Below the pieces are notes generated by a model, which had not been told where the DNA came from, did not search any database, and saw nothing but the letters and a program-made list of their open reading frames with translations. Position numbers and translations under genes: made by a program. Positions 45,537-50,587 of a stretch of DNA of 64,000 nt are shown here, in pieces; within the stretch, counting starts at the first letter, position 1, and the number at the start of each line of letters is the position of its first letter. Source of the DNA: Allohoeflea poritis. Its GTDB lineage: Bacteria > Pseudomonadota > Alphaproteobacteria > Rhizobiales > Rhizobiaceae. The stretch lies in assembly GCF_027889715.1 (NCBI RefSeq), contig NZ_JAPJZH010000012.1:62001-126000 (forward strand), given 5' to 3'.

Positions 45537-47255
45537 CTAACTTTTCTTTTCGAGCAGACGGTTGGCCGCCGATACGACAGCCTCCAGCGAAGCCGCCACG
45601 ATATTGGTGCTGATGCCGACCCCGAACAGCTTGCCGCCCGGATGCTCCATTTCCATGTAGCAGATCGCCGCGGCATTGGCGCCGTGCTGAAGCGAGTGCT
45701 CCGAATAGTCGGCGACGGTGATGTCGATGCCGATATGCTGCGAGAGCGCATGGACGAACCCGTCGATCGGTCCGGTGCCCTGTCCGATGATCTTGATCTC
45801 CTCGCCATTGTCGCGGATCACCGCTTCCACCTCGCGCACGCCCTTGTGCTCCAGCGATGGGAATGTGTGGTGATCCACATAGGAAAGCCGCGCGCCGGGC
45901 TGCTCGACATAACGTTCCAGGAACCGGTCGTAGATTTCCTTCGACGGCAGTTCCCGCCCGACATCGTCAGTAATGCGCTGGATATCGCCCTGGAACTCGA
46001 CCTGCAGGCCGCGCGGCAGGTTCAGCCCGTAATCCTCGTGCAAGACATAGGCGATACCGCCCTTTCCCGATTGGGAATTGATGCGGATGATCGCCTCGTA
46101 GGTCCGGCCCACATCCTGCGGATCGATGGGCAGATAGGGCACTTCCCAGATTTCCGTGTTGGCGGCGCGGATCGCCTTCATGCCCTTGTTGATGGCGTCC
46201 TGGTGGGAGCCGGAAAAGGCCGTGTAGACCAGTTCGCCGACATAGGGGTGGCGCTCGGGAATCACCATCTGGTTTGAATATTCATAGACCGCCTTGATCC
46301 GCTCGATATCGGTGCAGTCCATCTTCGGATCGACGCCTTGCGTGTACATGTTCAGCGCCAGCGTCACCACGTCGACATTGCCGGTGCGCTCACCATTGCC
46401 GAACAGGGTGCCTTCGACGCGGTCGGCGCCGGCCATCAGGCCGAGTTCCGTCGCGGCAATGCCGGTCCCGCGGTCATTGTGCGGATGCAGCGAGATGATC
46501 AGGTTCTCGCGGTTGTCGAGATTGCGGCACATCCATTCGATCTGGTCCGCATAGATGTTCGGCGTCGACATTTCGACGGTCGACGGCAGGTTGATGATCA
46601 GCTTGTTTTCGGCGGTCGGCTGAACGATTTCGGTGACCGCGTTACAGATTTCCAAAGCCACTTCCAGCTCGGTGCCGGTAAAGCTTTCCGGCGAATACTG
46701 GAACCGGTAGCCCCCACCGGCCTTTTCGGCCATGTCGGTGACCATCTTGGCGGCATCGACGGCGATCTGCTTGATCCCGGCGACATCCTTGGCGAACACC
46801 ACGCGGCGCTGCAATTCGCTGGTCGAATTGTAGAAATGCACGATCGGCCTGTGCGCACCTTCCAGCGCCTCGAAGGTCCGGGTGATCAGTTCCGGCCGGC
46901 ACTGCACCAGCACCTGCAGGGAGACATCTTGTGGCACGTCATGGTCTTCGATGCACCAGCGCGCGAAATCGAAATCCGTCTGCGAGGCGGAGGGGAAACC
47001 GATCTCGATTTCCTTGAAGCCCATGTCGAGCAGCAACTGGAACATACGTGACTTGCGGTCGTGCCCCATCGGATTGACCAGCGACTGGTTGCCGTCGCGC
47101 AGATCGACGGAGCACCAGATCGGCGCCTTCTCGATGCGCTTGGACGGCCAGGTGCGGTCGTCCAGGCCGGTCAGCAGATAGGGCTGGTATTTGCGCGCGG
47201 CATGCGCCATGCCGGCTTCTTTTCGCGACTCGGAAATCGGGTCAGTGGTTGTCAT
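45537..47255 (-). CDS. leuA: 2-isopropylmalate synthase (long LeuA2 type)
   Basis: First committed step of leucine synthesis: 2-oxoisovalerate + acetyl-CoA to 2-isopropylmalate. 572 residues from ATG 47255, the length of the LeuA2 branch. Catalytic motifs are SVDLRDGNQSLVNP (about 49-62) and HPHNDRGTG (about 258), with NGERTGNVDVVTLAL after it. The C-terminal part is the regulatory (leucine-binding) domain. An upstream leader ORF with a Leu run plus a terminator indicates attenuation control by leucine supply. Confidence 0.95.
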   Translation of the reverse strand: MTTTDPISESRKEAGMAHAARKYQPYLLTGLDDRTWPSKRIEKAPIWCSVDLRDGNQSLVNPMGHDRKSRMFQLLLDMGFKEIEIGFPSASQTDFDFARWCIEDHDVPQDVSLQVLVQCRPELITRTFEALEGAHRPIVHFYNSTSELQRRVVFAKDVAGIKQIAVDAAKMVTDMAEKAGGGYRFQYSPESFTGTELEVALEICNAVTEIVQPTAENKLIINLPSTVEMSTPNIYADQIEWMCRNLDNRENLIISLHPHNDRGTGIAATELGLMAGADRVEGTLFGNGERTGNVDVVTLALNMYTQGVDPKMDCTDIERIKAVYEYSNQMVIPERHPYVGELVYTAFSGSHQDAINKGMKAIRAANTEIWEVPYLPIDPQDVGRTYEAIIRINSQSGKGGIAYVLHEDYGLNLPRGLQVEFQGDIQRITDDVGRELPSKEIYDRFLERYVEQPGARLSYVDHHTFPSLEHKGVREVEAVIRDNGEEIKIIGQGTGPIDGFVHALSQHIGIDITVADYSEHSLQHGANAAAICYMEMEHPGGKLFGVGISTNIVAASLEAVVSAANRLLEKKS

Positions 47256-47341
47256 TGTTTCTCTCGTTCGTCTCTGAGCCGTGCCGTTCGCCTTCACGCG
47301 AAACGGGCCGGCTTTGCCATAGGGCCATTGGTCTTGATCTG

Positions 47342-47392
47342 TAAAGAAGAAAGGAGCGCATGCCAGCGGCGAACCGATCGCCGGACGCTCCT
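47342..47392 (-). terminator. attenuator terminator of the leuA leader
   Basis: On the minus strand, the outer stem AGGAGCG/CGCTCCT (47386-47392 with 47352-47358) encloses an inner stem GGCGA/TCGCC. It is followed directly by TTTCTTCTTTA. It begins right after the leader-peptide stop codon and lies about 90 nt before the leuA start. The position fits a transcription attenuator rather than an ordinary gene end. Confidence 0.7.
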
Positions 47393-47518
47393 CTAACGGG
47401 CCCGACGATCGCCAGTAAGACCGAGAAGAAGAAGCGAAAGGTCAAGCGCGGGCACGGTCCGCGCACCGGCGCGTACCTGCTCGAAGTCGATCACTGCTTT
47501 GACCGTTTCCATCATCAT
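47393..47518 (-). CDS. leuL: leu operon leader peptide
   Basis: A 41-residue ORF (ATG 47518; two further ATGs follow at 47515 and 47512) ending TAG at 47393. Near its end is the ten-residue stretch LDLSLLLLGL, with seven Leu codons: six CTT and one CTC. CTT stands out in a GC-rich genome. The stop abuts the terminator hairpin, and leuA follows. This is the classical arrangement of a leucine attenuator: ribosome stalling at Leu codons would prevent terminator formation. No Shine-Dalgarno is visible; the promoter spacing suggests a leaderless message. Symbol by analogy with enterobacterial leuL. Confidence 0.78.
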   Translation of the reverse strand: MMMETVKAVIDFEQVRAGARTVPALDLSLLLLGLTGDRRAR

Positions 47519-47525
47519 GGGCGCC

Positions 47526-47554
47526 GTTATACCCGCGACTTCGGTCGACGGCAA
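47526..47554 (-). promoter_or_regulatory. promoter of leuL-leuA
   Basis: On the minus strand, TTGCCG (47549-47554), a 17-bp spacer and TATAAC (47526-47531). Only 7 nt separate the -10 from the first leader ATG, so the transcript would start at or next to that ATG. Confidence 0.65.
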
Positions 47555-47620
47555 CAGTCTTGATACCCGTCCTGCCGGCGATTGAGATTGGATTGAGCTA
47601 TCGGGTGCGAGCCGTTTCAA

Positions 47621-47911
47621 TCACAAGTGTCTTGCAGGATCTTGATCCACACCCAGAATTCGCAGGATCAGGATGCCGTTTGCTTCGATACGATAGTAGA
47701 TGCTGTGGCGCGCGTGTACATGCCGCCGCAGGCCGGCGCGAATTTTCTGAAAGCTTCGGCCCATCTTCGGGTTTTCGGCCAAGAGCGACAGCGCTTTTGC
47801 CAAACCTTCCATGTAGTTCTCTGCCTGGGCAAAGCCGAATTGTTCTAGGGAGTAAAAGTAGATATTCCGCAAATCGGCTTCTGCAGCCAGGGAAAGCGCA
47901 TAGCTACTCAT
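47621..47911 (-). CDS. ParE/RelE-family toxin
   Basis: 96 residues from ATG 47911, overlapping the antitoxin stop by 8 nt. ParE-like pattern: LSLAAEADLRNIYFYSLEQF (N-terminal helices), NPKMGRSFQKIRAGLRRH, and YYRIEANGILILRILGVDQD at the C-terminal sheet. ParE toxins poison DNA gyrase, RelE-type relatives cleave mRNA; the target here is not certain. Second gene of a two-gene module. Confidence 0.87.
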   Translation of the reverse strand: MSSYALSLAAEADLRNIYFYSLEQFGFAQAENYMEGLAKALSLLAENPKMGRSFQKIRAGLRRHVHARHSIYYRIEANGILILRILGVDQDPARHL

Positions 47912-48164
47912 CAAGCAGCCCTTGCGCGCGCGCTGCCTCTCGCGCCTCCGCAAGGACTTGACCAGCCGTTTTCGAACTTACGCCGCTTGCCTCGGCAAGC
48001 TCCATCATGTCGTTGAGTTCGCGTGCGGCATCGAGTTGTCTCTCCTGATCCTTGCGCACGAGATCGCGGAAAAACTCGCTGACATTGCCGTATTGGCCGG
48101 ATTCAACACGTGTTCTGACATATTCGTTCATCGTGTCCGGCACCGAGATCGTTATCTTGCCCAT
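47904..48164 (-). CDS. ParD-family antitoxin
   Basis: 86 residues from ATG 48164 (GGAGG about 10 nt upstream). N-terminal ribbon-helix-helix (KITISVPDTMNEYVRTRVES, then GNVSEFFRDLVRKDQ) for DNA binding, and a helical C-terminal part that would bind and neutralise the toxin. The promoter just upstream contains a palindrome between -35 and -10, as expected for autorepression. Toxin gene overlaps its 3' end. Confidence 0.88.
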   Translation of the reverse strand: MGKITISVPDTMNEYVRTRVESGQYGNVSEFFRDLVRKDQERQLDAARELNDMMELAEASGVSSKTAGQVLAEAREAARAQGLLDE

Positions 48165-48205
48165 TGCGCGCAATCCTCCACCGTTTGACGAGTTACGAAA
48201 TAATA

Positions 48206-50536: not shown

Positions 50537-50587
50537 CTAATTGCGAGCCCGCCACCAGATGATGTTGATGTTGTGTGCGTCAGTCAT
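50537..50587 (-). CDS. trpL: trp leader peptide
   Basis: A 16-residue ORF MTDAHNINIIWWRARN with tandem Trp codons, ATG 50587 to TAG 50537. It corresponds to the rhizobial trpL peptide upstream of trpE(G), where the leader RNA and peptide are also known to act in trans in Sinorhizobium. No Shine-Dalgarno upstream; the promoter -10 ends 7 nt before the ATG, consistent with a leaderless message. Confidence 0.9.
   Translation of the reverse strand: MTDAHNINIIWWRARN

Follow-up and report, generated by a model that had tools for sequence, protein, structure and literature searches.

The leuA gene in the 64,000-nucleotide stretch of Allohoeflea poritis DNA analyzed here (the window) is very probably controlled by leucine-responsive, ribosome-mediated transcription attenuation operating through a leaderless leader mRNA. 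The anatomy of the leader, its conservation in relatives, the exclusive and covarying pairing of its RNA segments and the folds expected for four simulated ribosome positions on Leu codons are direct results of the analysis, and from these sequence features we infer the transcription start, translation, termination and the response to leucine. In the proposed mechanism, transcription would start at or next to the leader ATG, and a ribosome would load on the 5' end of the RNA without a Shine-Dalgarno sequence. With ample leucyl-tRNA, this ribosome would reach the stop codon and cover segment 2, so that segment 3 would join the 3:4 hairpin and RNA polymerase would terminate in TTTCTTCTTT before reaching leuA. 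When leucine is short, the ribosome would stall at earlier Leu codons, leaving segment 2 free to pair with segment 3 over 11 bp; the terminator would then be blocked and leuA transcribed. The initial annotation had already read the region before leuA as a leucine leader peptide with its attenuator, and this is the best reading of the locus, supported by anatomy and conservation alike. No strand had been given there, and the probably leaderless start and the 11-bp antiterminator had gone unnoticed.

All elements of the leader, as read from the sequence (promoter, ORF, hairpin and T tract), lie on the minus strand (Table 1). The promoter is present with the boxes and spacing given in the initial annotation, and the leader ATG lies 7 nt downstream of its -10 box, with no Shine-Dalgarno sequence. 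The previously noted LDLSLLLLGL segment was confirmed codon by codon as CTT GAC CTT TCG CTT CTT CTT CTC GGT CTT, and the leader TAG directly abuts the AGGAGC arm of the hairpin (47392-47387), the partner of which, GCTCCT, occupies 47357-47352. The two tiers of stem and the T-rich stretch behind them are likewise as first described, and the distance from the T tract to the leuA ATG, put earlier at about 90 nt, measures 87 nt. The leuA product shows Pfam HMGL-like, IPMS_D2 and LeuA_dimer domains, all above cut-off; its start context is GAGAGAAACAATG, and an in-frame GTG at 47297 provides a possible alternative upstream start. Consensus scans reported neither the leader promoter, their -10 model requiring a T at the last position, nor any minus-strand terminator, their hairpin model requiring a loop of 3–8 nt where the loop here has 10.

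Table 1. Elements of the leuA leader region, with positions counted from the first letter of the window.
Element	Position	Strand	Description	Basis or remark
Putative leader promoter, sigma-70-like	47526..47554	-	TTGCCG-17-TATAAC	sequence
Promoter boxes	47554-47549 (-35); 47531-47526 (-10)	-	TTGCCG; 17-nt spacer; TATAAC	
Leader ORF	47393..47518 (ATG 47518, TAG 47395-47393)	-	41 codons, MMMETVKAVIDFEQVRAGARTVPALDLSLLLLGLTGDRRAR	sequence and homologous ORF in relatives
Putative sensing codons	47417..47446	-	7 Leu in 10 codons: 6 CTT and 1 CTC	sequence
Antiterminator arm 1 (segment 2)	47401..47411	-	CGATCGTCGGG, within the last leader codons	11 bp with arm 2
Antiterminator arm 2, also terminator 5' inner arm (segment 3)	47375..47385	-	TCCGGCGATCG	pairing in 86 loci
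Predicted terminator hairpin (segments 3:4)	47352..47392	-	GC-rich; outer stem AGGAGC x GCTCCT and inner stem	
U-rich tract	47343..47352	-	TTTCTTCTTT	6 T in 8 nt after the stem
leuA, putative regulated gene	45537..47255 (ATG 47255)	-	2-isopropylmalate synthase, 572 aa	Pfam

Several properties of the window considered by itself bear on the simplest alternative, a chance Leu-rich frame lying beside an ordinary terminator. DNA of this kind is rich in open frames and GC-rich hairpins, and although the 41-nt hairpin is fairly stable (-21.6 kcal/mol, z -2.3, equalled by 6 of 200 shuffles), neither the 81-nt stretch (z -0.9, 36/200 shuffles as good) nor the 139-nt one (z -1.5, 13/200) is unusually stable. 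Leucine density speaks against coincidence. Only five of the 1082 window ORFs (at least 10 aa, longest per stop) hold at least six Leu in 10 residues, and since the other four span 635–938 aa, the leader is the sole ORF of such density under 600 aa. It is the conservation of the element across 86 loci, with a covarying alternative pairing, that makes a chance origin untenable, and we regard its probability as negligible.

Within the window's genus, a 361-nt region is present in all eight genomes searched (own included), and in each of these loci TATAA(C/G)-6/7-ATG, a Leu-rich C-terminus and the hairpin can be read by eye. Beyond the genus, the best 80 of 593 loci returned by a LeuA search were taken; the nearest of these is Nitratireductor sp. 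XY-223 (LeuA identity 95%), and further ones belong to Rhizobium, Sinorhizobium/Ensifer, Agrobacterium, Mesorhizobium, Brucella/Ochrobactrum, Hoeflea, Martelella and others. In each of the 79 named relatives for which upstream DNA is available, the best small ORF in the 750 nt before leuA is rich in leucine, with four or more Leu in 8 residues; at one locus (L050) the first pick was replaced by another ORF, and L083 was omitted for having no upstream DNA. The C-terminal pattern of the leader was found in 76 of these 79 relatives, and counts given below out of 77 (window included) hence omit the three loci where it was missed (L032, L057 and L080). These three were restored by coordinate in alignment A2, which was made from sequence alone and comprises 86 loci of the Rhizobiaceae and allied families (the window, 79 named loci and 6 further loci of the genus), L004 being excluded as an apparent duplicate of the L012 genome. 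An alignment of leuA leaders was the check suggested in the initial annotation, and across these 86 loci it finds both the Leu run and the hairpin conserved in relatives. The element is also carried by Sinorhizobium meliloti strain Ak57. The expectation that automatic annotation would leave the place empty agrees with the gene tables of two relatives, neither of which lists a leuA leader, but those tables are stated to be incomplete.

Many leader peptides end in LLLLGLTRGCRV(R/L) or LLLLGLIGDRRVR, their N-terminal halves vary, and the N-terminus is poorly conserved even within the window's genus. This distribution of conserved residues bears on the proposal that the leader RNA released by attenuation, or the peptide it encodes, has a further role in trans, as is reported for rnTrpL and peTrpL of S. 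meliloti. Such a role would be compatible with attenuation, and the architecture, which is that of the leaderless trpL, together with the presence of a trpL-like leader in the same window, lends it some plausibility; the variable N-terminus argues against it, and leucine sensing and RNA pairing already account for the residues that are conserved, so that we deem it unlikely. Codon usage in the leaders is also distinctive: CTT makes up 60% of the 449 Leu codons found in the last 19 codons of 77 leaders, vs. 18% of 1729 in 33 long window ORFs. CTT and CTC together reach 86% in the same leader segments, where CTG accounts for 9% as against 46% in the long ORFs. This preference may tune sensing to one leucine tRNA, or may keep the run unstructured.

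A leaderless leader mRNA, with its transcription start at or next to the leader ATG, is probable in view of the spacing between the -10 box and the ATG and of the lack of a Shine-Dalgarno sequence. Among the 77 loci, with distances of 4–10 nt allowed, a -10-to-ATG distance of 6–8 nt is the best in 68, and a TTGY motif starts 35–37 nt upstream of the leader ATG in 73. Shine-Dalgarno-like 4-mers (GGAG, GAGG, AGGA or GGGG) precede the ATG in 1 of 77 leaders vs. 48 of 77 leuA starts, figures that favor the leaderless reading to some extent by construction, because the best promoter score was taken where several in-frame ATGs were available and leuA starts were picked partly by their purine run. 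A precedent exists in S. meliloti, where, according to excerpts of two reports, the trpL leader RNA begins with the ATG of the leader ORF (PMC7298713, PMC10117765). The leuA leader has a promoter-to-ATG spacing similar to that of this trpL/rnTrpL leader, located before trpE(G), and of the trpE leader of the window, and differs from S. meliloti trpL in carrying Leu instead of Trp codons and in its length (41 vs. 14 codons).

The trpE(G) leader of the window, MTDAHNINIIWWRARN (50537-50587, minus strand), has TTGCGC-16-TTAACA 7 nt before its ATG and a seven-T run downstream, and it is probably leaderless as well. Between trpE(G) and the leuA leader, at 47621-48173 on the minus strand, sits a ParE toxin gene (Pfam ParE_toxin, E 1.2e-14) with a ParD-like antitoxin just under cut-offs. 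In Nitratireductor sp. XY-223 the end of trpE immediately adjoins the leader promoter, and the ParE/ParD-like pair thus looks either inserted or lost.

Evidence for a regulatory switch comes from the antiterminator. The initial annotation called the arrangement a complete attenuator while naming no antiterminator, and an ORF followed by a hairpin does not amount to one; the missing element does exist, and it covaries. Because segment 3 is used by both the antiterminator and the terminator, the two hairpins exclude each other. The antiterminator retains 11 of 11 pairs in 85 of the 86 loci, through 16 different sequence combinations, and 10 pairs in the remaining locus. Pairing statistics for this helix and for the outer terminator stem were computed on the 83 distinct rows left after removal of identical ones. 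By this measure, 99.9% of 913 antiterminator cells are paired vs. 97.5% in shuffles (0/500 as high), and sliding the helix by 1–3 columns lowers the figure to 20–56%, a comparison in which the native version is favored by the derivation of the structure from the same aligned sequences. Changes on both sides of a pair are seen in 37 cells, a number reached by 0 of 500 shuffles, as was the covariation score; for two coarser measures, 11 of 500 shuffles did as well. A quick LeuA tree of 80 rows gives a minimum of 18 changes of the pair haplotype, and for pair 26-65, the one richest in double changes, an independent-pairs test fell short of significance, supported contrasts being too few. Furthermore, the encoded residues switch between GDRR and RGCR while pairing is kept, and this change in the peptide under constant pairing points to a constraint on the RNA and not on the peptide. 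The outer terminator stem is paired in 98.0% of 498 cells, 7 of them changed on both sides, but its covariation score (0.079) is exceeded by that of one slid control (+3, 0.103).

Folding of the leader with a simulated ribosome, represented by covered bases barred from pairing, yields the alternation that the attenuation mechanism predicts at the four Leu codons tried. A ribosome placed on the first, second or third Leu codon gives the antiterminator as the minimum-energy fold; when it is moved to the last Leu codon, where it lies over segment 2, the terminator forms instead. With the ribosome on the stop codon and the upstream RNA free to pair, a long-range fold is obtained instead of a clean 3:4 hairpin, and the ribosome-free leader favors the antiterminator, so that no default termination is predicted without translation. 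These two outcomes are at odds with the simplest textbook scheme, and may reflect the fact that upstream translated RNA was allowed to pair in the simulation.

How the second hairpin is read may differ between the window's genus and its relatives. Counted over all 86 hairpins (an earlier score with a different rule covered 81 of 86), the 8 nt behind the stem hold at least four T in all 8 loci of the genus vs. 7 of 78 others, a contrast for which a rank test overstates the significance, the loci being related. The U tract is thus lacking in 71 of the 78 loci outside the genus, and intrinsic termination may hence not be the ancestral readout. A comparison with trpE leaders was made in 30 of the 80 named loci, chosen for variety, the leuA side being measured in 28 of the 30. 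In all 30 genomes some 8-nt stretch of the 110 nt after the stop of the trpE leader holds 6–7 T, whereas only 1 of the 28 leuA leaders measured attains 6 T in 8 within the 75 nt that follow it; trpE leaders hence possess a strong T tract that leuA hairpins mostly lack. All 30 of these genomes have a WW-containing leader before trpE. Conservation across the relatives, in sum, extends to the predicted ribosome-set switch and not to the intrinsic-terminator signal; in most of them the readout may be provided by Rho, pausing or translation.

Both contrasts, within leuA and between leuA and trpE, would also fit a variant in which the leucine switch is the same and the 3:4 hairpin serves chiefly as a pause site or a Rho-assisted stop instead of an intrinsic terminator, the T tract of the window being lineage-specific. 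This variant overlaps the attenuation reading, and the chances of the two are therefore not exclusive. Rho sites are stretches in which C exceeds G, and the 30 nt behind the hairpin are indeed G-poor (11–19% G, 24–31% C), with C above G in 68 of 77 loci when the first 40 nt are counted. This bias does not extend far, however, C exceeding G at 40–80 nt in only 42 of 77 loci, and the T tract of the window is itself good. We consider the variant unlikely. A second conserved stretch, roughly GCATTTGYCATCGCCAA ... GATCGGYTAWGA ... GGCAAATGMC, was observed between the leuA hairpin and the leuA ribosome-binding site in L052, L060, L066, L071 and other Rhizobium and Sinorhizobium loci. By-eye inspection of it as an RNA hairpin or an internal promoter was unconvincing, and nothing similar was seen in the window.

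The actinobacterial leuA leaders offer a different precedent. Leaderless leuA leaders without a typical Rho-independent terminator are described, in the part of the source consulted, for LeuL1 of Streptomyces lividans and for other Actinobacteria (PMC8079986), and the rhizobial leaders resemble them in the Leu run before leuA, in their probably leaderless start and, in most loci outside the window's genus, in having no typical terminator. The LEU element of Actinobacteria has been proposed to form a pseudoknot through pairing of its Leu run with the leuA Shine-Dalgarno sequence (PMC1262725), and translational control of this type, with a ribosome on the run freeing the Shine-Dalgarno sequence, can be envisaged here: owing to its preference for CTT, the run is complementary to GA-rich ribosome-binding sites, and the native duplex between run and ribosome-binding site is stronger than the shuffled-run mean in 52 of 77 loci. 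Unlike the LEU element, though, the window leader has an 11-bp antiterminator that excludes a terminator hairpin, and translational control would leave this conserved 2:3/3:4 exclusion without a role. Moreover, the pairing between run and Shine-Dalgarno sequence is not clearly locus-specific, native duplexes not standing clearly above those with partners exchanged among loci (equalled by 147 of 2000 permutations, native above the swapped mean in 43 of 77), and the leader stop and the leuA start lie 150 nt apart at the median. We accordingly regard translational control as improbable.

In its own genome, the model R1 finds the leuA site as the sole meaningful match, the second match having an E value of 0.10. 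Among 397 genomes of the order, 32 match, of which 19 belong to the same family (own included) and 13 to one genus of another family; at least two same-family genomes, among those listed, have no R1 match, and both gave no LeuA candidate. Only 5 of 385 genomes of the class match (own included), and matches in G058 and G334 were taken as false, since neither site belongs to a leuA of this type. As LeuA of this type occurs in 110 of the 385 class genomes, distant leaders seem to have diverged beyond the reach of R1.

Inspection of distant alphaproteobacterial loci provides a lead to a tandem-leader picture. Leu-containing ORFs are arranged in tandem upstream of leuA in 13 of 28 usable loci (L162-L164, L166, L168-L170, L172, L174, L175, L177, L179 and L181), a single ORF is seen in 9 and none in 6; the motif for these counts was derived from the same data, and L176, L182 and L184 were set aside, their upstream stretch lying inside a gene. 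In several loci the second tandem ORF ends in LRLSGGR or similar and is followed by sequence resembling the rhizobial hairpin. The top-ranked Leu ORF lies behind a TTGAC box at short -10 spacing in 26 of 28 loci, the promoter score having been used in the ranking. In another family of the class (L129 and L130, from G295 and G373), very short leaders, MHIFDGILLLGLIGARRA and MFDLGGILLLGLTGARRA, precede leuA, with TTGACA and TATAAG boxes 9 nt before the ATG. A broader scenario can be tentatively drawn, although we consider it rather doubtful as a whole: the Rhizobiaceae, allied families and related Alphaproteobacteria would share an ancient leaderless, ribosome-set leuA switch whose second hairpin is usually read otherwise than as an intrinsic terminator, with the window's genus having gained or kept a canonical T-tract terminator, and the rhizobial leader may represent the fusion or reduction of a tandem pair.

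No known family was found to cover the element. At the gathering score, Rfam had no match to the window or to six relatives' loci; with E values of up to 5 allowed, the interval 47200-47700 gave just two unrelated matches, far below threshold; three leader peptides likewise had no match in NCBIfam. The closest counterpart in Rfam is the leu operon attenuator of Escherichia coli and Salmonella (LeuL), which we take to be RF00512. Like it, the leader described here places a Leu-containing peptide before leuA and alternates between terminator and antiterminator structures. Unlike it, the window leader is without an Rfam match, is probably leaderless and has an RNA sequence and structure of its own; the E. 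coli leu leader has a Shine-Dalgarno sequence. The E. coli peptide has 28 aa, with 4 Leu, according to an excerpt of PMC6123439. Branched-chain amino acid leader peptides of ilvB/ilvIH have been described in the Alphaproteobacteria (PMC1273637, in a passage citing Vitreschak 2004), as has the ilvIH attenuator of Caulobacter (PMC4117421, in excerpt); these belong to the same class and have the same type of leader, but act on another target gene. Leu attenuators, leaderless leader mRNAs and terminator-less leuA leaders are hence each already known separately, and no description of a rhizobial leuA leader was found in the open-access literature searched, among the matches listed.

The attenuation reading would put the first step of leucine synthesis under the control of a leucine-sensing leader in many plant-associated and soil bacteria, and would place a second probably leaderless leader beside trpL. 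It would also set side by side, within the same cell, a trp leader followed by a strong U tract and a leu leader whose switch is conserved but which usually has no such tract, and this contrast makes the reading of a ribosome-set fold without a U tract directly testable in S. meliloti.
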